Assembly: GCF_005298075.1 (NCBI RefSeq)
Contig: NZ_SZZH01000001.1
Location: 1,798,001 to 1,862,000 of the forward strand
Direction: 5' to 3'
DNA: 64,000 nucleotides
Source: Nakamurella flava
GTDB lineage: Bacteria; Actinomycetota; Actinomycetes; Mycobacteriales; Nakamurellaceae
Positions within the stretch are counted from its first letter, which is position 1, and each line of letters begins with the position of its first letter. A program made the translations under genes and the position numbers. Positions 244 to 48,389 of this stretch are shown here, in pieces. The notes below the pieces were generated by a model that was not told the DNA's origin, searched no databases, and saw only the letters and a list, made by a program, of their open reading frames with translations.

Positions 244-1740
<1,497 letters not shown>

Positions 1741-37048: not shown

Positions 37049-39148
37049 TCAGCCCGTCGACCGGGCCGCATCCAGTCGCTGCTCGATCACCGGCGCGAGC
37101 GCGTCGACCATGGCCGCCCCCAGATGGTGCACGTCGCGGTAGAGCAGGCGGTTGCCGGCGATCGGGCCGCAGGTGGTGTCGGTGCACAGGTGGTCGAGGA
37201 GGTCGACCATCGGCACTCCGGCGGCCGCGGCGGCGGCCGCGCTCGCTTCCCGGATCTCGCCGTTCAGGGCCTCGGCCCTGGGCAGCGCACAGGCCGCGGT
37301 GTCGTCCAGATGGGCGGCCAGGCAGTTGCTCGGGGCATCGGCGAAGTGGGGCGTGTCGGCCATCATCACCGTCCGGCCGGCGGGCAGCCGTTCCAGCGTG
37401 CGCTGCACACCGGCCCGCCAGGTCGGCAGGTCGTCGGCCGAACGCCGCCCGGCCAGGAAACCGAACGAGTCGTAGTTCGAGGTCACCACCAGGGCCGGGT
37501 CGAGGGCGTCGATGCGGTCCAGGACCGCGCTGCGCCAGGCGTCGCACTGCGGGTAGGCCCCGTTGGGCGAGGACATCCGGACGTCCGCCGCGGGACAGGC
37601 GGAGCGGGTGAAGACGACCAGCGTGGCCTGGCGGTCCAGCGCGTAGCGCTCGACGGCCGGGAACCACTGGGCGGCGTGCGAGTCGCCGAACAGCACGATC
37701 GTCGACGTGCCGTTCGGGTCGCCGTAGGTGCAGTCGGGGATGCGGGTGGTCACGAAGTCGAGCACGCACCCGTCGCCGTACAGGACGGGGACGTCGGACG
37801 AGGCCGCCCGCAGCGACGGCACCAGGTTGTCCGGGACGTACGGGGTGAAGACCGGCGGTGCGGTCGGTTCCCCGGTCGCCGCCGGGCGTCCCGCGTCGAG
37901 CTCTCCCCGGCTGGCCAGCTTGCCGAGGCCGACGAAGCCGGCGGCCAGCACCAGGGCGGTGACCAGCGCGGCGACGATGACCGTGCGGGACGGCAGGCCG
38001 GCCCGGAAGGACCCGGCACCGAAACCGGAGCGGAACGGTTCCTCCACGAACCGGTAGCTGGCCATCGACAGCAGCACGGTGACCGCGAGCATCACGGTGC
38101 CGGACAGGAGCCCGGGCGGCCCCCAGAGTTCCGTGGCGAAGACGATCACCGGCCAGTGCCAGAGGTAGACGCTGTAGGAGATGCGGCCCACGAACTGCAT
38201 CGGCGCCCGGTCCAGCAGCACCCCGCCGCCCCCGGTCACCGGCCCGAACGACCCGGCCGCGATCACCAGGGCGGTGGCCGCGACCGGCAGCACGGCGGCG
38301 GAGCCGGGGAAGGTGGTCTGCGCGTCGTAGACCAGGGCCACCCCGACCAGCACCAGCAGGCCGAGCCAGCCGGCCGTCGCCCGCACCGGCGCGGGGACCG
38401 ACCAGCGCTGATCGCCGGCCGCCCGGGCCAGCAGCAGCAGGGCCAGCAGCGCGCCGACGCCGAACTCCCAGGCGCGGGTGGGCAGCGAGAAGAACGCCCA
38501 GGCCTGCCGGGTCGGGGTGAACCAGACGCTGGCCGCCAGGGAGACGAGCACCAGGGCCGTGACCCCGACGCCGAGCAGCCGCCACGGGCGACCCGACCGG
38601 CGGCGGGCCAGCAGGAACAGCCCGACCAGCAGCGCCGGCCAGATCAGATAGAACTGCTCCTCCACCCCCAGCGACCAGTACTGCTGGTACGGCGACTCGT
38701 TGCTGTCGGTGAGGTAGCTCGTGCCGTTGAGGGCCAGCCACATGTTGGGGACGTACAGCGCCGCGCTGGCCGCGTCGGCGGCGATCCGTTCCAGGCGCAA
38801 CGGCGAGGACACCAGCAGGGCTACGGCGAAGGTGGCCACCGCGACGACCAGCGCGACCGGGATGATGCGCCGGATGCGGCGGGCGTAGAACCGGCCGAAC
38901 CGCAGGCGGCCGGTGCCGGTCACCTCCCGGGCCAGGTGCGAGGTGATGAGGAACCCGGAGATGACGAAGAAGACGTCGACCCCGACGTAGCCGCCGGGCA
39001 GGAACGGCACCCCCAGGTGGAACAGCACCACGAGGCCGACCGCGACGGCGCGCAGGCCCTGGATGTCGGTCCGCAGCTCTCGTCGGGGCGCACCGTGGTC
39101 CGGCGGGTCGATCGGGGTGGCGGCTCGGGTCCGCACCTGGAACGCCAC
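37049..39148 (-). CDS. OafA-type acyltransferase with SGNH domain
   Basis: A 699-residue membrane O-acyltransferase. The acyltransferase-3 domain (about residues 25-400, some 10-11 helices) has the conserved R-x10-H-type start LRTDIQGLRAVAVGLVVLFH and YWSLGVEEQFYLIWP. A C-terminal extracytoplasmic SGNH hydrolase-like domain follows, with the nucleophile in IVLFGDSHAAQW and the closing Asp-His in DVHHLG. Such fusions O-acetylate surface polysaccharides or glycolipids. The GTG at 39148 is chosen because GAGGAG lies seven bases upstream; an upstream TTG would add 15 Arg-rich residues. It is the gene next to pepQ in the accessory block. Confidence 0.92.
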   Translation of the reverse strand: MAFQVRTRAATPIDPPDHGAPRRELRTDIQGLRAVAVGLVVLFHLGVPFLPGGYVGVDVFFVISGFLITSHLAREVTGTGRLRFGRFYARRIRRIIPVALVVAVATFAVALLVSSPLRLERIAADAASAALYVPNMWLALNGTSYLTDSNESPYQQYWSLGVEEQFYLIWPALLVGLFLLARRRSGRPWRLLGVGVTALVLVSLAASVWFTPTRQAWAFFSLPTRAWEFGVGALLALLLLARAAGDQRWSVPAPVRATAGWLGLLVLVGVALVYDAQTTFPGSAAVLPVAATALVIAAGSFGPVTGGGGVLLDRAPMQFVGRISYSVYLWHWPVIVFATELWGPPGLLSGTVMLAVTVLLSMASYRFVEEPFRSGFGAGSFRAGLPSRTVIVAALVTALVLAAGFVGLGKLASRGELDAGRPAATGEPTAPPVFTPYVPDNLVPSLRAASSDVPVLYGDGCVLDFVTTRIPDCTYGDPNGTSTIVLFGDSHAAQWFPAVERYALDRQATLVVFTRSACPAADVRMSSPNGAYPQCDAWRSAVLDRIDALDPALVVTSNYDSFGFLAGRRSADDLPTWRAGVQRTLERLPAGRTVMMADTPHFADAPSNCLAAHLDDTAACALPRAEALNGEIREASAAAAAAAGVPMVDLLDHLCTDTTCGPIAGNRLLYRDVHHLGAAMVDALAPVIEQRLDAARSTG

Positions 39149-39471
39149 GGGCACTCTCCTCGCCGCGTCGGGACCAGCCCTTCGCTTCGTCAACCACGAC
39201 CTCGAACGGGGGAACCCTAGCGGGCGACAGGCAGCGCTGAGTGACGTCAGCGTTTCCGAGAGTGGTCACAAGGGAGAGAAACCGCACAGCCCGTGCCCGG
39301 GGGCGCTTCCCGACCGTGGTCGGCCCGGCCGCCGACGACGGAATACGCACGGCTCGGGCCAGGTTGGTCGAGTCGCCGGGCTGACCTCACACCGTTTACC
39401 CCGCCCCGGATCCGGTCACGGAACGATCGAGCAGCCGCCCCACTCCCACCCCCACCCCTTTCGGAGGTCCC
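39149..39471. other. Divergent intergenic region, acyltransferase / DJ-1 gene
   Basis: 323 bases without a gene. TAGGGT on the minus strand (39219-39214) is a possible -10 for the acyltransferase. CGCTGA-n6-TCAGCG at 39235-39252, with TGACGTCA inside, is a possible regulator site. The stretch just before 39472 is pyrimidine-rich and ends in a good ribosome binding site, CGGAGG. I see no RNA gene here. Confidence 0.4.
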
Positions 39472-40146
39472 ATGTCCCCCCGCGTCCTTCTCGTCCTCAC
39501 CAGCCACGACGACCTCGGCGGCGTCCGCAAGACCGGGTACTTCGTCGGCGAGGCCGCCCATCCGTGGAAGGAATTCGTCGACGCCGGTTTCACCGTCGAC
39601 CTCGCGTCCATCTCCGGTGGCACCCCGCCGCAGGACGGCTACGACGACAGCGACCAGATCCAGAAGGACTTCCTGGCCGATCCGCGGATGGCCGAGCAAC
39701 TGGCCGACACCCGCAAGCTCGACGAGGTCGACCCGGCCGAGTACGACGCCATCGTGCTGGTCGGCGGGCACGGCACCATGTGGGACTTCCCCGACAGCCC
39801 GGCACTCGCCGCGCTCGGCCGCTCCGTCTGGGAGAACGGCGGCATCGTCTCCGCCGTCTGCCACGGCCCGTCCGGCCTGGTGAACATGACCCTGTCCGAC
39901 GGCACCCCGCTGATCGCCGGGCGCCGCGTCGCCGGGTTCACCAACGAGGAGGAGGCCGCCGTCGAGCTCACCGACGTCGTTCCGTTCCTGCTGGCTGACC
40001 GGCTCACCGCCGCCGGGGCCGAGCACGTCCCCGGCCCGAAGTTCACCGAGCAGGTCCAGGTGGACGGTCGTCTGGTCACCGGCCAGAACCCGCAGTCCGC
40101 CGCCGCCCTGGGCCGCGAGGTGGTCACGCTGCTGCAACAGCGCTGA
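39472..40146 (+). CDS. DJ-1/PfpI (Hsp31-like) family protein
   Basis: A 224-residue class I glutamine amidotransferase-like protein of the DJ-1/PfpI superfamily. The nucleophile elbow Cys lies in IVSAVCHGPSGLVN (about residue 128), and upstream is the usual acidic partner region VLVGGHGTMWDF. The length and the early GVRKTGYFVGEAAHPW segment resemble Hsp31/glyoxalase III-type proteins, so detoxification of methylglyoxal or protein deglycation is the likely role; the exact activity is not certain. GGAGG lies four bases upstream of the ATG. Two hairpins follow it, separating it from the flavin module. Confidence 0.88.
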   Translation: MSPRVLLVLTSHDDLGGVRKTGYFVGEAAHPWKEFVDAGFTVDLASISGGTPPQDGYDDSDQIQKDFLADPRMAEQLADTRKLDEVDPAEYDAIVLVGGHGTMWDFPDSPALAALGRSVWENGGIVSAVCHGPSGLVNMTLSDGTPLIAGRRVAGFTNEEEAAVELTDVVPFLLADRLTAAGAEHVPGPKFTEQVQVDGRLVTGQNPQSAAALGREVVTLLQQR

Positions 40147-40156
40147 CCGGACGAAC

Positions 40157-40215
40157 GTCCCGGACCGTGGTGCTTCCGACGGCGGTCCGGGACGGCCCGG
40201 GTGGTCCACCGGGCC
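40157..40215 (+). terminator. Tandem terminator hairpins after the DJ-1 gene
   Basis: A perfect 11-bp stem, GTCCCGGACCG (40157-40167) with CGGTCCGGGAC (40183-40193), is followed at once by GGCCCGG (40194-40200) with CCGGGCC (40209-40215). The two stems probably insulate the flavin-transfer genes from upstream transcription. Confidence 0.65.
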
Positions 40216-40324
40216 ACCGTGGGCCCAATCCTGGGGATTGCCCGCGGTCGCCGTGGCCCGCGACGCTGAGCCCGGGTCCGATGATCAGCGGGGCCCAGTG
40301 TCTTCACAGCAACCCCTCAGGGTC

Positions 40325-40349
40325 GGAACCGGCGAGAAACTCAAACGTT
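40325..40349 (+). promoter_or_regulatory. ECF-sigma-like promoter of the flavin module
   Basis: GGAAC (40325-40329) and CGTT (40346-40349) separated by 16 bases match the GGAAC-n16/17-(C)GTT pattern of stress-type ECF sigma factors. Transcription would begin about 130 bases before the lipoprotein ATG. The rest of the 341-base gap 40147-40487 holds the terminators above and no gene that I can see. Confidence 0.5.
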
Positions 40350-40487
40350 CATCTAGCGTGGTGTCGTCGCGGTGATGCATTCCGTCACCGCCGACGCAAC
40401 GACTCCGCCCCGTCCGACGAGGACGTCGGGGGCCGGCGCATCCCGGGTCCGGGCTTCGGGCCCCCGAACACCAGCAGGAGCCACCAC

Positions 40488-41114
40488 ATGACGAACGACC
40501 ACTCCCCCAGCACGGACAGCCCGGTCGCCCCGGCCGAGCTCGCCCGGGGTCGCCAGGCCCGCCGCCGTCGGACGACCTACGCCTCGCTGGCCGGGTGGAC
40601 CCTGCTCGGCGCCCTGAGCACCGGCATCGTCGCCTGCAGCTCGACCCCCACCACCACCGCCGGCGCGACCACCACGGCCGCCCCCGCGTCCACCAGCGCC
40701 GCCGCCACCTCCGCCGCCTCCTCGGCCACCAGCAGCGCGGCGTCATCCTCGGCCGCCGCCAGCTCCGCCGCACCGGCCTCCACGAGCGCGGAGAGCAGCG
40801 CCGCCGCCGCGGCCACCGAATACAAGGACGGCACCTACACCGCCACCGGCAGCTACCAGAGCCCGGGCGGCGAGGAGTCCGTCGAGATCACCCTGACCAT
40901 CGCCGGCGACGCCATCACCGACGCGACCGGTAAGAGCAACGCCACCCGGCCACAGTCCGTCGAGTACCAGGGCCAGTTCCTGGCCAACTTCGCCGGGCAG
41001 ATCGTCGGCAAGAACGTCGACGACGTCTCGCTCAGCAAGGTCGCCGGCTCGTCCCTGACCTCCGGCGGCTTCAACCAGGCCCTGCAGACCATCAAGACCG
41101 ATGCCAAGGCCTGA
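40488..41114 (+). CDS. FMN-binding domain lipoprotein
   Basis: A 208-residue exported electron carrier. An Arg-rich N-region (RQARRRRT, 22-29) and hydrophobic stretch end in a lipobox-like IVAC (Cys50). A Ser/Ala/Thr-rich tether (about 51-110) follows, then an FMN_bind domain (111-208; YKDGTYTATGSY early, VEYQGQFLANFAGQIVG). The motif where ApbE normally attaches FMN to Thr (SGATxTS) reads AGSSLTS at 186-192, so a Ser (189) occupies the acceptor place. The ATG has AGGAG seven bases upstream. apbE starts inside its 3' end (14-base overlap), strong evidence that this is the ApbE substrate. Confidence 0.85.
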   Translation: MTNDHSPSTDSPVAPAELARGRQARRRRTTYASLAGWTLLGALSTGIVACSSTPTTTAGATTTAAPASTSAAATSAASSATSSAASSSAAASSAAPASTSAESSAAAAATEYKDGTYTATGSYQSPGGEESVEITLTIAGDAITDATGKSNATRPQSVEYQGQFLANFAGQIVGKNVDDVSLSKVAGSSLTSGGFNQALQTIKTDAKA

Positions 41115-42072
41115 CGGCACCGCGGTCACCGGGTCGGTCGACACCGTCGACCGACCCGGTCCCCGGCCGTTCCGGCGGGACTTCGCCGCCCTGGGGACCC
41201 GGTGGCAGATCGACACCGACCGGGCGCTGTCCGTCGCCGAATGGACCGACATCGATGAGCGCATCGACACCTACGACCGCTGCTACTCGCGTTTCCGGGA
41301 CGACTCGCTGGTCAGCCGGCTGACCGCCGGACCGGGCACCGTCGAGTTCCCCCCGGACGTCCTGCCCCTGCTCGAGCTCTATCGGCGGCTCTACGACGGC
41401 ACCGGCGGAGCCGTCACCCCGCTGATCGGCGGCACCCTGGCCGACCTCGGTTACGACAGCGACTACACCTTCCGACCGGTCGCCGCCCCCCGCGCCACCC
41501 CGGCCTGGGACGAGGCCATGACCTGGGACGGACCCGTCGTCACCACCCGGCGCTCCGTCGTGCTGGACGTCGGGGCCGCCGGCAAGGGCCACCTGGTGGA
41601 CATCGTGGGCGACCTGCTGACGTCGTTCGGGATCGACTCCTGGGTGGTCGACGGATCCGGAGACCTGCGTCATCGAGCCCCGTCCGGAGACCCGGACGAC
41701 GCCCTGCGGGTGGGCCTGGAGCATCCGTTCGTCCCCGACCAGGTCATCGGCGTCGCACCGCTGTCCGACGACGCACTGGCCGCATCGGCCGGCAATCGCC
41801 GCCGGTGGTCGACACCCGAAGGGCCCGGGTCCGGCCGGGTGCTCCACCACATCGTCGACCCCCGCACGGGCGCGCCCACCTCGGCCGTGCTCGCCACCTG
41901 GGTGATCGCCGGTTCGGCCCTGGTGGCCGACGGGCTGGCCACCGCCCTGTTCTTCACCGATCCCGTCGCGAGCCGCGACCTCGCCGAGGCGTTCGGCGCC
42001 GATTGGGTGCGCGTCGCGGCCGACGGATCGGCCACCTGGTCGCCCACCTTCGAAGGAGAGTTGTTCCGATGA
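41101..42072 (+). CDS. apbE: FAD:protein FMN transferase
   Basis: A 323-residue ApbE-family flavin transferase that covalently links FMN from FAD to Ser/Thr of target proteins. Family landmarks are FRRDFAALGTRWQI at the start, DRCYSRFRDDSLVSRL, the FAD/Mg segment VLDVGAAGKGHLVDIVGDLL, the GSGDLR strand, and HHIVDPRTGAPT before the metal-binding region. No signal peptide or lipobox is evident, so it may act in the cytoplasm or be exported otherwise; many ApbE proteins are periplasmic lipoproteins. It overlaps the lipoprotein gene by 14 bases and the next gene by ATGA. Confidence 0.92.
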   Translation: MPRPDGTAVTGSVDTVDRPGPRPFRRDFAALGTRWQIDTDRALSVAEWTDIDERIDTYDRCYSRFRDDSLVSRLTAGPGTVEFPPDVLPLLELYRRLYDGTGGAVTPLIGGTLADLGYDSDYTFRPVAAPRATPAWDEAMTWDGPVVTTRRSVVLDVGAAGKGHLVDIVGDLLTSFGIDSWVVDGSGDLRHRAPSGDPDDALRVGLEHPFVPDQVIGVAPLSDDALAASAGNRRRWSTPEGPGSGRVLHHIVDPRTGAPTSAVLATWVIAGSALVADGLATALFFTDPVASRDLAEAFGADWVRVAADGSATWSPTFEGELFR

Positions 42073-43646
42073 GCGTGAGCACGAACCGCGGGAGCTCCGC
42101 CGCCCCCACCGCGCCGCCGCTGGTGGCGGCGCGCACCACCCTCGACCGACTGCTGGGGCGGGTCACCATGTACCGGCTCGTCGTCCTCGGCCTCGCCGCG
42201 CTCGTCGTCCTCTCGTTCGTACTGTCGTTGACCGGGGCGATCTTCTACACCCCGGCCGCGCTGGCCCTGACCCTGGCCGTGCTCGTCGTCGTCACCCTGG
42301 CCTCGGGACGGCTCTACGGCGCGCTGTTCGGCGTCACCCCGCACACCGAGTCCGCGCTGGTCACCGCCGGACTGCTCTACTTCCTGCTCTGGCCGAGCAC
42401 CGAACCGCTGAAGCTGCTGGCCATCGCACTGGCCGCGTTCGCCGCGTCGGCCTCGAAGTACCTGGTGGCCTGGCGCGGCCGGCACATCCTCAACCCGGCC
42501 GCCGCCGGCGTGCTGCTGGTCACCCTGCTCGGGCTGACCGGCGGGGTGTGGTGGGTGGCCACCGAGCCGCTGCTCTACCTCGTCGCGCCGCTGGTCCTGC
42601 TGATCGCCTACCGCACCGGCAAGCTCCCCGTCGTCGCACTGTTCATCGTCGTCGCCGGGGCGCTCACCGTCGTCTTCAGCATGTCCGGCGGGACCGACCT
42701 CGCCGGAGCGCTGCAGTACGCCTTCGTCGCCAGCCCGATCGTCTTCCTCGGCGGGTTCATGCTCACCGAGCCGCTGACGCTGCCCCCCACCCGCGGCCAG
42801 CAACTGGCCGTCGCGGCCCTGGTCGGCGTCCTCGTCGCCCTGCCCACCCTGGTCAGCCTGCACGTCGGCCTGCTGTCGCTCACCCCGGAGACCGCGCTGC
42901 TGGTCGGGAACGTCGTGGCCTTCGCGCTGGCCCGGCGGCGGGGTCTGAGCCTCACCCTGTCCGGGCGACGCTCGTTCGGACCGACCACCACGGAGTTCGT
43001 CTTCACCCCCGATCATCCGGTGCGGTACCGGCCCGGCCAGTGGCTGGAACTCACGCTGCCCCATCGCAAGGTCGACTCCCGCGGCTCCCGGCGGGTGTTC
43101 TCCATCGCCTCGGCCACCCCGGACGGGTCGTCGGTCGCCGTCGGCATCAAGCTCCCGCCCGGCCACACCAGCTCATTCAAGCGGGCCCTGGGCGACCTGC
43201 CTGTCGGCACCCACCTGCGGGCCACGACCGTGGCCGGTGAGTTCACCCTGCCCACCGACCGCAGTCAGCCGCTACTGCTGGTCGCCGGCGGCATCGGCAT
43301 CACGCCGTACCTGACCCAGCTCGCGGAATGCGTGCAGCAGGGCCGTGACGTCGTCCTGGCCTACGGGGTCACCGACCCCGACGAGATCCCCTACCGGGAC
43401 GACCTGGTCGACCTGGGTGTCCCGGTGGTGCTGGCCGCCCCCCGGGTGGCCTCGGTGGATCTGCCCGACGGCTGGGTGCCGGTGGAAGGGTTCCTCACCG
43501 CGGACACGTTGCGCGAACACGTCCCGGACGTCGACCGCCGCGTCGCCTACGTCTCCGGCCCACCGGTGATGGTGAACGCGTTGTCCGCCACCCTGCGTCA
43601 GCTCGGCGCCCGGAAAGTGCGGACCGACGCCTTCGTGGGGTACTGA
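42069..43646 (+). CDS. RnfD/NqrB-like membrane protein fused to a ferredoxin-NADP reductase domain
   Basis: A 525-residue fusion. The first 290 residues are about nine to ten membrane helices of the RnfD/NqrB type (GRHILNPAAAGVL; GGFMLTEPLTLPPTRGQQ, matching the FMATDPVT region). The remainder (about 295-525) is a flavodoxin-reductase-like domain: FAD-binding RRVFSIAS, NAD(P)-binding LLLVAGGIGITPYL, and a C-terminal YVSGPPVMV. It should carry electrons from cytosolic NAD(P)H through the membrane to the FMN lipoprotein. The ATG overlaps the apbE stop (ATGA), with AAGGAGAG upstream. No other rnf or nqr genes are nearby, so it would be a one-protein version of those complexes (inference). Confidence 0.85.
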   Translation: MSVSTNRGSSAAPTAPPLVAARTTLDRLLGRVTMYRLVVLGLAALVVLSFVLSLTGAIFYTPAALALTLAVLVVVTLASGRLYGALFGVTPHTESALVTAGLLYFLLWPSTEPLKLLAIALAAFAASASKYLVAWRGRHILNPAAAGVLLVTLLGLTGGVWWVATEPLLYLVAPLVLLIAYRTGKLPVVALFIVVAGALTVVFSMSGGTDLAGALQYAFVASPIVFLGGFMLTEPLTLPPTRGQQLAVAALVGVLVALPTLVSLHVGLLSLTPETALLVGNVVAFALARRRGLSLTLSGRRSFGPTTTEFVFTPDHPVRYRPGQWLELTLPHRKVDSRGSRRVFSIASATPDGSSVAVGIKLPPGHTSSFKRALGDLPVGTHLRATTVAGEFTLPTDRSQPLLLVAGGIGITPYLTQLAECVQQGRDVVLAYGVTDPDEIPYRDDLVDLGVPVVLAAPRVASVDLPDGWVPVEGFLTADTLREHVPDVDRRVAYVSGPPVMVNALSATLRQLGARKVRTDAFVGY

Positions 43647-43741
43647 GCCGCAGCGAGCGAGCATCGCAGGCGCCCCCGGCGCCGAGGAGCGCAGCGAGCG
43701 CCAGGCGAACATCAGACACTGAGCCGCAGCGAGCGCCAGGC
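43642..43741. repeat. GCAGCGAGCG direct repeats over and after a stop codon
   Basis: ACTGAGCCGCAGCGAGCG occurs at 43642-43659 and again at 43718-43735. A third, shorter copy, GCAGCGAGCGCCAGGC, is at 43691-43706 and repeats at 43726-43741. The first 18-mer contains the TGA stop of the RnfD/FNR gene. The repeats look like a local duplication of the gene end; similar GAGCGnAGCGAG strings are frequent in actinobacterial intergenic DNA. Confidence 0.6.
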
Positions 43742-43768
43742 CCACTTCGGGGCAGGGGGTCGTGTGGT

Positions 43769-43774
43769 TACCGT
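43769..43774 (+). promoter_or_regulatory. -10 box of the VOC gene
   Basis: TACCGT ends six bases before the GTG at 43781 with no ribosome binding site, indicating a leaderless transcript separate from the flavin module. Confidence 0.5.
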
Positions 43775-43780
43775 GGTCCG

Positions 43781-44551
43781 GTGATGGACGTGCGCTGGAC
43801 CACCGCGTTTCTCGACTTCCCGGCGGCTGTTCACCCGGCGGGAGCCCGGTTCTGGGAGCGGGTGACGGGCAGCACGCTGTCCCCGTCGCGCGGGGATCAC
43901 CGGGAGTTCGCGACGCTGGTCCCCGGTGCGGGCGACGGGTTCCTGCGGGTGCAGCGGCTGGCCGACGGGCCCGCGCGAGTGCATCTGGATCTGCATGTCG
44001 CCGACTTGGAGGCCGGGACCACGGCGGCGGTGTCGTCCGGAGCGACCGTGGTGCACCGGTGGGACGACGGGGACGTGGTGGTGCTGCGCTCGCCCGCCGG
44101 ACTCGTCTTCTGCCTGGTGCCGTTCGCCGCCGCACCGGGCACGCGCTGGCATCGCCCGCCGCCGTCGCCGTGGGCCGGGCACCTGTCGCTGGTCGACCAG
44201 ATCACCGTCGACGTCGCCCCGGACGACGCCGATCGGGAGGTCGGGTTCTGGGCCGCCCTCACCGGTTGGGAGCCGTTGCGGCCGCACTGGGCGGGGCCGT
44301 TCCGGCCGCTGCTGCGACCGGAAGGCCAGCCGCTGCGCATCATGCTGCACCGGCTAGACCGGGGTCGCGGGCCGGCCACCGCACACCTGGACCTGGCCAG
44401 CACCGACCGGGCGGCGGAGACCGAGCGGCAGACCCGGCTAGGCGCCGTCGTCCACGCCGTGCACGACGACTTCACCGTGCTGACCGACCCGGCCGGGCTG
44501 GCCTACTGCATCACCGACCGCGACCCGGTCAGCGGGTTGTCACCCGACTGA
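43781..44551 (+). CDS. VOC-superfamily (glyoxalase-like) protein
   Basis: A 256-residue protein with two tandem glyoxalase/bleomycin-resistance-like halves (about 5-118 and 130-250). Each has the VOC pattern of a helix after the first strand and a C-terminal beta strand ending in DPAGLAYCI or SPAGLVFCL. Metal ligands are plausible in HLDLHVADLE and HLDLASTDRA, which share the HLDL motif. The substrate is unknown; relatives are annotated as glyoxalase-like proteins without proven activity. I use the GTG at 43781 because its -10 box is exactly placed for a leaderless mRNA; the ATG next codon is the alternative. Confidence 0.82.
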   Translation: MMDVRWTTAFLDFPAAVHPAGARFWERVTGSTLSPSRGDHREFATLVPGAGDGFLRVQRLADGPARVHLDLHVADLEAGTTAAVSSGATVVHRWDDGDVVVLRSPAGLVFCLVPFAAAPGTRWHRPPPSPWAGHLSLVDQITVDVAPDDADREVGFWAALTGWEPLRPHWAGPFRPLLRPEGQPLRIMLHRLDRGRGPATAHLDLASTDRAAETERQTRLGAVVHAVHDDFTVLTDPAGLAYCITDRDPVSGLSPD

Positions 44552-44577
44552 CCGGGTCGCGCCGCGCACCCGGTCAG
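44548..44577. terminator. Bidirectional terminator spanning both stop codons
   Basis: CTGACCGGGT and ACCCGGTCAG form a perfect 10-bp stem with a CGCGCCGCGC loop. The TGA of the VOC gene (44549-44551) lies in the left arm and the TGA of the convergent lectin gene (44576-44574) at the mirror position in the right arm, so one hairpin ends both genes. Confidence 0.7.
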
Positions 44578-47500
44578 ACCGGGAGAGCCCACCGCTGGGC
44601 CGCGCTGCCGTTGCAGTCCCAGATCTGCAGGCGGTTCCCGTTGGCCGGGTTCCCGGCCGGAACATCCAGGCACTTGCCGGACTGCGGGTTCCGCAGGGTG
44701 TCGCCCTGCTCGACCCAGACCTGGGCACCGCTGCCGTTGCAGGTGTAGATCTGCAGGGCCGAACCGTTCGTCGTCCCGCCGCCGGCCACGTCCAGGCACT
44801 TGCCCTGGGCGCGAAGGGTGCGGTCGCTCGAGACGTTCCACTGCTGGGCCTTGCTGGTGTTGCAGGCGTACAGCTGCACGGGGGTCCCGTCGTCCGTCCG
44901 GGCCTCCCGGACGTCCGCGCACTTGCCGGCGAGCCCGATGATCTGCCCGACCGCGATCGACGACACCGGCAGCGACCAGCGCTGCGCCACCGTGCTGTTG
45001 CAGTCGTAGAGCTGCAGCGCGACCCCCTTGGCCAGGTTGCCGCCCGGGATGTCCAGGCAGCGACCCGACTGCGGGTTCTTCAGCGCCAGTCCCTGCTGCA
45101 CCCACACCTGGGCACCGGATCCGTTGCACGTCCAGATCTGGACCGGCGCGAAGTTGACGGTCCCGCCGCCGGCCACGTCCAGGCACTTGCCCAGCGCGCG
45201 GACCGTCTGATCGCTCCCGACGTTCCAGGTCTGCGCCTCGGTGCCGTTGCAGTCCCACCGCTGCACCCGGGCGCCGTCGGTCGGGTTGCCGCCGCGGACG
45301 TCCAGGCAGGACCCTTGCGGCCCGACGACCGGACCGGAGGCGATCACGCTGCTGGCGACCCGCCACTGCTGGGCGCCCGAACCGTTGCAGTCCCACAGCT
45401 GCAGACGCTGGCCGTCCACCGCGTTGCCGCCGGGGACGTCCAGGCAGCGGCCGGACTGCGGGTTGCGCAGCGAGCCGTCACCCTGCGGCACCCAGACCTG
45501 GGCGCCGGAGCCGTTGCAGCTCCACAGCTGCACGGGGGTGCCGTTGGTGGTGCCGCCGCCCGCGACGTCCAGGCACTTCCCGAACGCCCGCAGGCTCTGG
45601 TCCGACCGCACGGTCCACTTCTGGGCCCCACTGCCGTTGCAGGTGTAGATCTGCACCGGCGTCCCGTCCGCCGAGCGCGCCTCCCGCACGTCCAGGCACT
45701 TGCCGCCCGGCCCGACGACCTGCCCGGCCGCCCCGGACGTCCCGGTGCCGCGGACCTGCACCTGCTGGGCGCCCTGGCCGTCGTTACCCGTGATGATGTA
45801 CGTCCCGGTGACCTCGCCGGACGCCGTCGGCTTGAACGACACCGCCTGCCGGATCGTGTCGAGGGGCTCCAGTTCCTGTCCCTCGGCGACCGGGTCGGCC
45901 ACGTCGAACGGTGCGGCCGGCGGGGCCGCCTTGTTCAGGGTGAGCGCGAGGTTGCCCTCGTTGACGATGTCGAAGTACTTGGTCGCCGTCTGCCCCACGG
46001 GCACCGCCCCGAAATCGATGACGTTCGGCGTGAGGGTCAGCTTCGGTGCGCCGACGACCCCCTCACCCGACAGCGGGACCCGCACGGTTCCGGTCGACGA
46101 GCGCACGACCAGCGCGGTGTCCACCGTGCCCGCCGCGGTCGGCGCGAACGCGATCGGCACCGACACCGACTGTCCGGCGGCGATGGTGGAACCCACGGTC
46201 GGCGGTGCGGCCACCCGGTAGGGCGCCGGTGGCAGGTCGACCCCGGTGATGGTGGTGCTGGTCGTCCCCGTGTTGGTGATGTTCGCGCTCAGGGTCACCA
46301 CGCCGCCCGTCGGGACCTCCTCGAAGTCCAGCGACGCCGGGGTGGACAGCAGACCGTCCCGGGTCCCCAGGCCGTGCAGGTCGAAGCCCAGTGGCCCCGC
46401 GCTGGTGGCGAAGTTCAGGGCGCCGGACAAGGAGGTCGGAGTGCCCGGGGTGAAACTGACCGGGACGGTCAGGGTCTGCCCGGTCTTCAGCTGGGCCGGA
46501 ACGGTGACCCCGCCCGCCCGGAACCCGTCGCCCGAGGTGGAGACGCCGGTGACCGTGACGTCGCGGACGGCGGTGACCGTCACCGACTTCGTCGCCGTCG
46601 CACCGACCGCGACCGAACCGAAGTCGGTGGGCGACCCGGACAGCGCGACCGTCGTCGGCCGGCCGAACCCGAACACCACGCCGTCCCGCGTGCCGGTGTA
46701 GACCCGGCCCCCGTCCGTGGCCGGCTTGGCGAACTTGGTCGCGGTGCCGATCGGCGCCGAGTAGCGCAGCACCATCTGGCCGTTGCGCGGCACCGCCTCG
46801 AAGGCCCGGATCTGACCGCCGGAACCGTTCGACCCGCTGCTGTACACGGCCCACACCAGGGCGGTGCCCGACTTCGTCCCGTCCGACGTCACCGCCGGGG
46901 ATCCCGAGGTGTAGCCGAACCAGCCGGTGCTGGTCCCGGTCCGGGTCAGCGACGGCAGGCCGTTGCCGGCCACGCCGATCTTGAACGCCGACAGCGGCCC
47001 GCCGTTCGTCACCATGTAGACGTAGCCGCCGTCGCCGCCCCAGAACGCGGGATGTCCCCAGACGCCGTTGTAGGGGCCGACGGTCTGCAGCACGGCGTCG
47101 GTCTTGCCCGGCCCCTGCCCCATCCCGCCGAGCTTGTCCCGGTCCAGCAGGAACACCCGACCGTCCTTGCCGACCTGCACCATCAGGTGGGGATTCGCGG
47201 CCGTGCCGAAACCGTCCGGGATCGCCATCGGCGAGCCGGATCCGAAGTCGACGTCGTCGCGGTCGAGGTTGGTGTTGTTGACCGGGCTGAAGAAATCCTT
47301 GGACACCAGGGAACGGTCCGAGTTGACCTGGAGGCGAACGACCGATTCGCCGAGGGTGCCCGGCGGGGACTGGCCCGGACCGGGCGGCGGCGAGACGCCG
47401 TTGCCGGTGGTGAAGAAGATGCGACCGGGCCCGTCGGAGACCAGCCCACCGCCGGAATGCCAGATGCCGGCCCCGTCGCTGGACGATCCGGTCTCCGTCG

Positions 47501-48245
47501 CCCACATGGTGGTTTGGCGGCCGCTCGTCGCGTCGAAGCCGATCACGTAACCGACGTAGGCGCCGTAGTCGCAGTGACTGGCGAAGGAGGCGTAGACGAC
47601 CCCGTCCAGCAGCAGCAGACCCGGCCGCTGCATCGCCGTCTTGGCGTTGAACGTGTTGGCGGGGTTGTTCGTCGGGCTGCCGGCGATCTTCGTCGGGAAG
47701 CCGGACCGTTCCCGGCCGGTCGTGATGTCGACGGCGTGCATGTACCAACTGGGCTGGTCGACCGTCGGGCCGTCGTTGACCTTGGACGTGAAGTACGCGG
47801 TTCCGGTAGCCGGGTCGACCACCGGCGTCGCGGTGATGCCGATGTTGGGAACCAGGTCACCGCACCCGATGGCCGAGGCCGGCCAGGGGCGGCCGACGTC
47901 CCGGGTCCACCGGATGGCCCCGCTCTTCGGGTCCAACCCGTAGGCCTTGTTGTTCTCGGTGACCGCCAACAGGGTGTCCTTGGCGATCACCGGCTGCGCG
48001 TAGATCTGGCCGTCGAGCTGGGTCGCGAACAGCTGGCCGAAGTCCGCCGCGGAGACGTCGGACGGCCCGAGTCCCGGCTGGTTCGGGTCCCATCCGGTCC
48101 GGTTGTTGTCGTACGACACGGTGGTGTTGTCGGCCGCCGCCGGGATGGACCCCGCCAGCGTGCCAGTGACGACGAGTGCGGTCGCCGACAGGATGGCGAC
48201 CGCTTTCCGTCTGACGCGCTCTACCCGGATACGGATGGTCTGCAT
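44574..48245 (-). CDS. Giant secreted propeller / ASH / triple ricin-B lectin protein
   Basis: A 1223-residue exported protein. After a signal peptide (1 to about 38, AxA-like end PAAADN) comes a PQQ-type beta-propeller (about 40-540; repeated strands such as GRVYTGTRDGVVFGF), then three ASH/choice-of-anchor-D-like modules (about 540-850; DFGSVAVGATATKSVTV, LDFEEVPTGG, IDFGAVPVGQTATKYFDI). Last come three ricin-type beta-trefoils (about 852-1223) with nine QxW repeats (QKW, QVW, QQW, QTW, QVW, QRW, QQW, QVW, QRW), each with CLDV-type strands. It should bind galactose-like or other sugars on a surface; no catalytic residues are identified. The ATG at 48245 follows GGTGGGGGGAA; an upstream in-frame start would disrupt the signal. 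Confidence 0.88.
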   Translation of the reverse strand: MQTIRIRVERVRRKAVAILSATALVVTGTLAGSIPAAADNTTVSYDNNRTGWDPNQPGLGPSDVSAADFGQLFATQLDGQIYAQPVIAKDTLLAVTENNKAYGLDPKSGAIRWTRDVGRPWPASAIGCGDLVPNIGITATPVVDPATGTAYFTSKVNDGPTVDQPSWYMHAVDITTGRERSGFPTKIAGSPTNNPANTFNAKTAMQRPGLLLLDGVVYASFASHCDYGAYVGYVIGFDATSGRQTTMWATETGSSSDGAGIWHSGGGLVSDGPGRIFFTTGNGVSPPPGPGQSPPGTLGESVVRLQVNSDRSLVSKDFFSPVNNTNLDRDDVDFGSGSPMAIPDGFGTAANPHLMVQVGKDGRVFLLDRDKLGGMGQGPGKTDAVLQTVGPYNGVWGHPAFWGGDGGYVYMVTNGGPLSAFKIGVAGNGLPSLTRTGTSTGWFGYTSGSPAVTSDGTKSGTALVWAVYSSGSNGSGGQIRAFEAVPRNGQMVLRYSAPIGTATKFAKPATDGGRVYTGTRDGVVFGFGRPTTVALSGSPTDFGSVAVGATATKSVTVTAVRDVTVTGVSTSGDGFRAGGVTVPAQLKTGQTLTVPVSFTPGTPTSLSGALNFATSAGPLGFDLHGLGTRDGLLSTPASLDFEEVPTGGVVTLSANITNTGTTSTTITGVDLPPAPYRVAAPPTVGSTIAAGQSVSVPIAFAPTAAGTVDTALVVRSSTGTVRVPLSGEGVVGAPKLTLTPNVIDFGAVPVGQTATKYFDIVNEGNLALTLNKAAPPAAPFDVADPVAEGQELEPLDTIRQAVSFKPTASGEVTGTYIITGNDGQGAQQVQVRGTGTSGAAGQVVGPGGKCLDVREARSADGTPVQIYTCNGSGAQKWTVRSDQSLRAFGKCLDVAGGGTTNGTPVQLWSCNGSGAQVWVPQGDGSLRNPQSGRCLDVPGGNAVDGQRLQLWDCNGSGAQQWRVASSVIASGPVVGPQGSCLDVRGGNPTDGARVQRWDCNGTEAQTWNVGSDQTVRALGKCLDVAGGGTVNFAPVQIWTCNGSGAQVWVQQGLALKNPQSGRCLDIPGGNLAKGVALQLYDCNSTVAQRWSLPVSSIAVGQIIGLAGKCADVREARTDDGTPVQLYACNTSKAQQWNVSSDRTLRAQGKCLDVAGGGTTNGSALQIYTCNGSGAQVWVEQGDTLRNPQSGKCLDVPAGNPANGNRLQIWDCNGSAAQRWALPV

Positions 48246-48389
48246 ACGTGGTTCCCCCCACCTGCCGAAAGCCATTCGGGTGTCAGTCGTCTGTGACCGA
48301 CAAGGGGAACGTACAGGAGCGTGGTGGACGGGTGACGAAGTTCGTCGACGCCCGCACCTGGAAGACGTTTTGTCGACTTTGTCCGAGCG

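Follow-up and report, generated by a model that had tools for sequence, protein, structure and literature searches.

The window considered here comprises 64,000 nucleotides of the Nakamurella flava genome (contig NZ_SZZH01000001.1, positions 1,798,001 to 1,862,000) and contains three overlapping plus-strand genes for an FMN_bind-type lipoprotein, an ApbE-family flavin transferase and a fusion protein in which an RnfD/NqrB-like membrane domain precedes a flavodoxin-reductase domain (Table 1). The coordinates and products given by an initial annotation of the window were confirmed, and its core proposal, a minimal path leading electrons from reduced nicotinamide adenine dinucleotide (phosphate), NAD(P)H, to the outside of the cell and ending at a lipoprotein with flavin mononucleotide (FMN), finds support in fold, profile and conservation. 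The triplet belongs to an already published kind of electron-transfer system, the Nqr/Rnf-like systems, of which it is an actinobacterial representative. Statements on the literature follow the passages covered of each cited source.

All three genes were found in the same order in 78 of 80 named loci, and they are adjacent in 77; these 80 were taken as the top-ranking among 192 confirmed relatives and are no random sample. One locus has its lipoprotein gene about 2.4 kb upstream (L062) and two are cut by contig ends (L047, L088). Such a constant order is no chance arrangement. An ATGA-type overlap joins apbE to the fusion gene in 64 of 79 cases. Residue counts refer to 81 rows for the fusion (P0003 and the 80 loci) and to 79 rows for the lipoprotein (P0001 and 78 loci); the alignments A2 (54 fusion rows) and A3 (45 lipoprotein rows) were both picked for variety, and one locus with an interrupted frame (L010/L185) was excluded from the alignments.

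Table 1. Features of the three-gene unit and its immediate surroundings in the window.
Feature	Position	Strand	Remark
PfpI-family gene	39472-40146	+	immediate upstream neighbour
Strong G+C-rich hairpins	40157-40250	+	between PfpI-family gene and triplet; possible transcription barrier
FMN_bind-type lipoprotein P0001, 208 aa	40488-41114	+	gene 1 of triplet
Signal and lipobox	P0001, to Cys50		
Low-complexity tether	P0001, to ~residue 110		
FMN_bind-like domain	P0001, residues 113-208		
GSSLT motif	P0001, residues 187-191		predicted flavin site Ser189
ApbE-family flavin transferase P0002, 323 aa	41101-42072	+	overlaps lipoprotein gene by 14 nt
RnfD/NqrB-like and reductase fusion P0003, 525 aa	42069-43646	+	ATGA overlap with apbE
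RnfD/NqrB-like membrane domain	P0003, residues ~1-290		fold and profile
Flavin adenine dinucleotide (FAD)/NAD(P)H flavodoxin-reductase domain	P0003, residues ~291-525		PF00175 and fold
Thr99 codon	42363-42365	+	aligned with NqrB Thr162, riboflavin contact (PMC9325719)
His139-Asn142 codons	42483-42494	+	equivalent to NqrB Asn200 and Asn203, riboflavin contacts (PMC9325719)
Short five-helix-linker remnant (GVWWVATE), residues 159-166	42543-42566	+	most of covalent-FMN segment missing
Glu234 codon	42768-42770	+	equivalent to NqrB Asp346, riboflavin contact (PMC9325719, PMC10643135)
Glyoxalase-like gene	43781-44551	+	immediate downstream neighbour

The fusion protein and its predicted cofactor sites

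An AlphaFold model of the fusion, built with 54 aligned sequences, has a pLDDT of 92.2 and a pTM of 0.89. Its first part matches the RnfD chain 8ahx_D (Z 23.3, root mean square deviation (rmsd) 3.6 over 247 aligned residues), followed by 8rbq_D (Z 23.2, rmsd 6.9) and 9eri_D (Z 23.0, rmsd 8.1); NqrB is not among the best 50 structure matches, which is no evidence of its absence. In a profile comparison the N-terminal domain matches a set of 24 RnfD sequences, chosen by their ATP[LI] motif with the exception of RsxD, at an hhalign probability of 91.5 (E 8.6e-7). The relation of the first 290 residues to RnfD/NqrB, on which the annotation had built, is thus borne out by two lines that agree, and judged by predicted fold and profile the N-terminal domain is RnfD-like. 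Pfam's own model of this family, PF03116, was found in two of six aligned members and in 11 of the 54 rows of A2 (E<=0.01) and was not detected by the Pfam search in the window fusion itself. The C-terminal domain is matched by PF00175 over residues 404-505 (E 7.7e-09) and resembles structures of the ferredoxin-NADP reductase (FNR) type, among them GcoB (Z 25.7) and NqrF (Z 23.6).

The same model bears on a different assignment, according to which the fusion would use heme for transmembrane reduction, as MsrQ/NOX-type enzymes do. Such enzymes do the same job with a related reductase domain, the full-length SpNOX structure 8qta was matched at Z 22.6 (rmsd 6.6, model residues 180-524, reaching into the membrane part), and the genome carries a separate MsrQ-like locus, recognised by eye. 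Against this stand the close fit of the membrane domain to RnfD and the histidine pattern: the only histidines present in at least half of the 81 fusion rows are His92 (67 rows), the invariant His139 and the cytosolic His332 (81 rows), so that the two bis-histidine sites are missing from the membrane domain. We consider a heme enzyme highly improbable, and a heme wire was rejected as a candidate, since the membrane domain holds no conserved histidine pairs. No cysteine column reaches half of the 81 rows either. As no cysteine is conserved and His139 is the only invariant histidine of the membrane domain, a metal-free path is likely, and the chain would consist of flavins alone, namely FAD, one non-covalent flavin and the FMN of the lipoprotein.

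Where the non-covalent flavin could reside is suggested by comparison with NqrB, in which Thr162, Asn200, Asn203 and Asp346 contact riboflavin (PMC9325719) and function is impaired when D346 is replaced (PMC10643135). The corresponding positions are strongly conserved among the fusions, with T99 in 77 of 81 rows and H139, N142 and E234 in all of them. The covalent FMN of RnfD, by comparison, is bound to Thr153, with Arg130 and Glu185 beside it and a five-helix linker on top (PMC9588780), and this part of the protein is reduced in the fusions. Most of the linker falls into a gap in the hhalign alignment, and the spacing between the NP motif and the acidic residue of helix VIII has a median of 92 residues (84-108) in the 81 fusions and of 126 (125-167) in 31 canonical RnfD, the latter being the 30 best-scoring loci and RsxD, taken without an ATP[LI] filter. 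The position equivalent to Arg130, placed by the NP motif, is Ala in 73, Val in 7 and Thr in 1 of the fusions.

Within the remnant, column 165 is occupied by Thr (40 rows), Ser (19), Asn (11), Ala (10) or Val (1). As 59 of 81 fusions, including the window protein with its WVATE, thus keep a Thr or Ser, and 38 read [AG][TS]P at positions 164-166, the membrane domain might, like NqrB and RnfD, still carry a covalent flavin at Thr165 or the equivalent residue, which would place two covalent FMNs in the path. This reading was kept as a rival for that reason. It has to accommodate the 22 fusions with Asn, Ala or Val in this column, a segment about 34 residues shorter than that of RnfD and the absence of the more extended motif D..[STA].A[TS]P from all 81 fusions, and Huang et al., in the text covered, give the covalent site as not conserved (PMC10979944). 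The looser pattern [ST]xA[TS]P is likewise found in 0 of 81 fusions as compared to an ATPL-type motif in 24 of 31 canonical RnfD, a count that overstates the contrast, since six of the remaining seven RnfD have ASPL and some lack the Ser or Thr three places before. A second covalent FMN in the membrane domain therefore appears rather unlikely, and Thr165 may be what remains of the former site. The SGGT motif of the fusion (residues 206-209) was also considered as a covalent flavin site and dismissed, as it is not conserved.

The reduced linker also concerns the possibility that the module is no plain reductase but, like NQR and Rnf, couples electron flow to ion transport, as a pump or as an ion-driven enzyme. 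In both complexes, the subunit believed to transport Na+ is a homologue of the membrane domain. However, the part to which gating has been assigned is the five-helix linker (PMC9588780), which is largely missing here, and the unit includes none of the other core subunits (8-kb flanks compared; the whole genome was not searched). Ion pumping is accordingly regarded as improbable.

The lipoprotein and the adjacent flavin transferase

Every one of the 79 lipoproteins carries a lipobox, as recognised by a loose pattern, and an invariant GSSLT, which puts a Ser at the Thr position of the usual SGAT. The confident part of the lipoprotein model (residues 113-208) superimposes on the second domain of SaFMN3 (8p2a; Z 10.5, rmsd 2.0, 87 aligned residues) and on NqrC (Z 9.0), so that the annotated identity, for which no Pfam match was obtained, agrees with an FMN_bind-like fold, and ApbE and the reductase part are confirmed by Pfam. 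Of the 45 sequences in A3, 34 are matched by PF04205 at E<=1 (best 1.5e-5); the window lipoprotein is not among them. Twin arginines occur in 14 of 79 signals, including that of the window, and none of the signals fits a stricter Tat pattern; export would thus be mostly of the Sec type.

The window ApbE is recognised by PF02424 with an E of 1.2e-40. The residues K162, H249, H250 and D253 are retained in 79 of 80 rows and D277 and T281 in all 80; we take these six to be its catalytic positions. ApbE usually works outside the cytosol and needs FAD there. The window ApbE lacks the N-terminal lipoprotein or Sec signal of a typical exported ApbE, its frame offers no earlier ATG, GTG or TTG start upstream, and its N-terminus contains no hydrophobic stretch, so that the 'extracytoplasmic flavin transfer' of the initial annotation finds no support. 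An export signal was found in none of the 80 rows: in 40 of them the domain is preceded by 15 residues or more, which in no case pass the hydrophobicity cut-off, set at 1.6; in 36 the 1-14 preceding residues leave no room for a signal; and 4 have none, one of these being a contig-end fragment. The E. coli ApbE, at 1.99, lies above this cut-off, as do 78 of the 79 signals of the lipoproteins.

A transferase without signal and a substrate with a lipobox suggest that flavinylation precedes export, and on these sequence features ApbE probably modifies the lipoprotein in the cytosol. The full sequence of events, in which cytosolic ApbE places FMN on the GSSLT Ser of the precursor and the covalent flavin then crosses the export channel with the protein, is a tentative proposal that we hold to be somewhat less probable than its opposite. 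ApbEs that reside in the cytosol and act on targets there are known (PMC12052999), and the literature passages covered describe no such enzyme acting on an exported target. Should flavin attachment before export prove true, it would depart from the textbook order with ApbE outside the cytosol; the missing signal in any case poses the question of whether the flavin is attached before or after export.

Whether the lipoprotein is flavinylated at all must be weighed against a reading that gives the GSSLT domain a different ligand and ApbE a different target. The tested consensus is D-x-x-[ST]-G-A-[ST], from which GSSLT departs, and in tested cases a change from Thr to Ser lowers flavinylation (PMC12052999); in addition, one Nakamurella copy has no adjacent ApbE and one lipoprotein homologue is an orphan. 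On the other side, 78 of 80 loci have ApbE together with this lipoprotein, the flavin position of the fold is always taken by GSSLT, and Ser is among the residues accepted for flavinylation (PMC12052999). An unflavinylated lipoprotein is hence considered unlikely.

Proposed electron path and relation to known systems

In the mechanism proposed for the triplet, NAD(P)H would reduce the FAD of the cytosolic reductase domain, from where electrons would pass singly to a non-covalent flavin, riboflavin or FMN, held in the RnfD-like helix bundle at the NqrB riboflavin site. This flavin would hand them on to the FMN on the Ser of the tethered lipoprotein, which would dock at the outer face in the space left by the covalent FMN of RnfD. 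In Rnf, FMN and riboflavin are 7.7 A apart and the FMN of RnfG comes within 5 A of that of RnfD (PMC9588780), distances which imply that a lipoprotein flavin in the vacated site would be within range. The lipoprotein would then swing outward and reduce a small oxidant at the cell surface, its FMN having been loaded by the signal-less ApbE, probably in the cytosol before export. We put the probability of this whole path, loading by ApbE included, at roughly 0.65.

Several observations weigh against it. The profile of the N-terminal domain matches the single E. coli RsxD weakly (probability 10.8), and that of the lipoprotein matches the single E. coli RsxG hardly at all (0.3). IscU-type chains fit the lipoprotein model nearly as well as FMN_bind structures do (Z up to 9.4), so that its modelled fold alone is not specific for FMN_bind, and the window protein lacks any Pfam match, PF04205 included. 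At the riboflavin contacts Asn200 is replaced by His and Asp346 by Glu, and judging from these substitutions the site may bind FMN or nothing. To these are added the residual Thr or Ser and the [AG][TS]P triplets around column 165, the departure of GSSLT from the flavinylation consensus, and the fact that no neighbouring gene in the flanks of the named loci indicates an acceptor.

The direction of flow could also be the reverse, with the lipoprotein gathering electrons outside and the reductase domain making NAD(P)H. The potential of NADH is -320 mV. Since the -184 mV of SaFMN3, one FMN_bind value (PMC10339131), lies above it, flow in this direction would be uphill, and no donor enzyme is conserved nearby. 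Even though the FMN-to-riboflavin leg of NQR runs inward (PMC9325719), inward flow through the triplet therefore seems very unlikely.

The outward path is not new as such. Meheust et al. (2021) described 127 Nqr/Rnf-like clusters, mainly from Actinobacteria and the candidate phyla radiation (PMC8238504), and Huang et al. (2024), in a preprint, modelled such a system for Ktedonobacter racemifer (PMC10979944) and thereby already proposed the main mechanism, so that the locus is a member of a known system. As in the published clusters, an NqrB/RnfD-like domain and a PF00175 reductase share one chain and are accompanied by an FMN_bind partner and apbE (PMC8238504, PMC10979944); the covalent NqrB/RnfD FMN site is not conserved, and electrons have been proposed to pass in the outward direction only, starting from NAD(P)H (PMC10979944). 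At the locus, this corresponds to the RnfD-like domain, PF00175, an exported partner with an FMN_bind fold, apbE and the lack of a conserved flavinylated Thr, the difference being that PF03116 and PF04205 miss the window member. What is added here are the riboflavin positions, the GSSLT Ser, the missing ApbE signal, the argument for a metal-free path and the Pfam blind spot; the Ser site, the lipoprotein tether and the signal-less ApbE are not described in the covered text of PMC8238504 and PMC10979944, figures and supplements aside. Titles and abstract openings yielded no experimental study of such a triplet, most subscription papers being out of reach. If the proposed path is correct, one protein carries electrons across the membrane by flavins alone, without iron or heme, and this iron-free route would be useful under iron shortage.

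Related complexes share parts of this design. The membrane, FMN_bind and reductase folds and the riboflavin positions are common to RnfD and RnfG of Rnf and to NqrB, NqrC and NqrF of Na+-NQR, whereas the window unit lacks the other subunits of these complexes and conserved Fe-S cysteines, has a shortened covalent-FMN segment and carries its reductase fused; the conserved unit comprises just three genes, and the covalent-FMN Thr of Na+-NQR and Rnf is a mixed position (Thr 40 and Ser 19 of 81). MsrQ-like flavinylation systems (PMC8238504) also combine a reductase-fused membrane protein with an FMN_bind protein and ApbE, but use hemes instead of a flavin across the membrane; in place of their heme-ligating histidine pairs, the membrane domain of the fusions has one invariant and one partly conserved His, and the FMN_bind partner of the MsrQ-like system in this genome has SGAT and no lipobox. 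SaFMN3 of Streptomyces azureus provides the closest solved FMN_bind domain (8p2a) and differs in having three Thr-linked flavin domains (PMC10339131) as opposed to a single domain with Ser.

The MsrQ-like locus forms a second flavinylation locus of the same genome (L186:4900-8200, contig ~797,400-800,700). It encodes a reductase-fused membrane protein that by eye resembles MsrQ, an FMN_bind protein that lacks a lipobox and carries SGATVTS, and an ApbE below the signal cut-off (1.27), with apparent two-component genes alongside.

Distribution, flanks and neighbouring genes

Full-length fusions were found in 5 of 17 genomes of the genus, at six loci. Across the class, the fusion family profile (E<=1e-30) detects 29 of 394 genomes, of which 27 have near the whole model, one has a frame interrupted by TAA and one has the reductase part only. 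PF03116 (E<=0.001) detects 11 of the 394, six of them above its own cut-off and six of them among the 29. As this model misses most fusions of the class, the 127 published clusters, counted with its help, are probably an underestimate.

Variants of the arrangement were also seen. A second Nakamurella copy (L206:4106-6240, genome G094) has lipoprotein and fusion genes adjacent with no ApbE between them, and in Nakamurella silvestris an orphan lipoprotein homologue (L204:3501-3986) lies beside a 99-aa membrane-looking frame with neither ApbE nor fusion in the 8 kb covered. A locus in a genome of the same taxonomic order (L185:4144-6051) has lipoprotein and ApbE matches beside a fusion frame broken by TAA, be it by decay or sequencing error. 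In other actinobacterial genomes, RnfD-like domains with HIFNPSN are fused to FG-GAP and UnbV_ASPIC (L173:3389-6715, L177:3461-7528, L178:1345-4572), possibly a different architecture for outer electron transfer.

No widely shared partner gene travels with the triplet. In an all-against-all comparison of flanking frames of at least 90 aa (E 1e-12), families other than those of the triplet reached at most 12 of 30 genus bins (29 loci) within 8 kb. The larger clusters, seven in number, centre on the triplet, and three of them also take in stray frames, from at most seven bins. Ten chosen downstream genes (of 78) comprise GT87 (4), Clp ATPase (2), OmdA, HxlR/BTAD, DUF218 and one without match (1 each), and a same-strand neighbour within 50 nt was called by a crude gene caller in 5 of 78 cases downstream and 1 of 76 upstream. 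Given this lack of a widely shared partner, the triplet appears to be a self-contained unit with an acceptor that is probably either small or the product of a gene at another place. Six of the 127 published clusters carry a VIT1 iron transporter (PMC8238504). As to the acceptor, ferric reduction is our first guess, and a doubtful one. Upstream of the loci, consensus sites for five kinds of regulation (iron, zinc, redox, Fur and NO) match slightly better than in resampled sequence (0-3 of 60 sets equal). Since all five patterns are rich in A+T and shift alike, the excess is taken as an effect of uneven composition. The best match to the iron box has 9 mismatches in 19 positions in the window and 5 at L021, the lowest overall, a value that 3 of 60 resampled sets reach.

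As for the setting of the locus, the annotated strand isolation was not borne out, as both neighbours, the PfpI-family and the glyoxalase-like gene, lie on the strand of the triplet. A promoter of its own had also been assumed; no promoter-like site, sigma-70-like sites included, was found in 40100-43900, and the 341-nt gap leaves room for a promoter of another kind. Insulating terminators were mostly not borne out: no T-run terminator-like site stands at either end of the triplet, and strong hairpins follow the PfpI-family gene only. The folding of 40147-40250 (z -3.65) was matched by none of 200 shuffles, while the stretch 3' of the fusion gene folds in an ordinary manner (z -0.86). The two terminator-like sites in the scanned region both lie within genes, as compared to 0.8 expected, and Rfam returned nothing at gathering score within 39000-45000.

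Two further features lie downstream of the fusion gene. Positions 43642-43748 hold a repeat of the CGCAGCGAGCG type, with one pair of 18-nt copies that are identical and one pair of 24-nt copies (88%). On the minus strand, 44574-48275 encodes a secreted-looking protein of 1233 aa with repeated CLDV...CNGSGAQ.W units that, by eye, resemble ricin-type carbohydrate-binding repeats.

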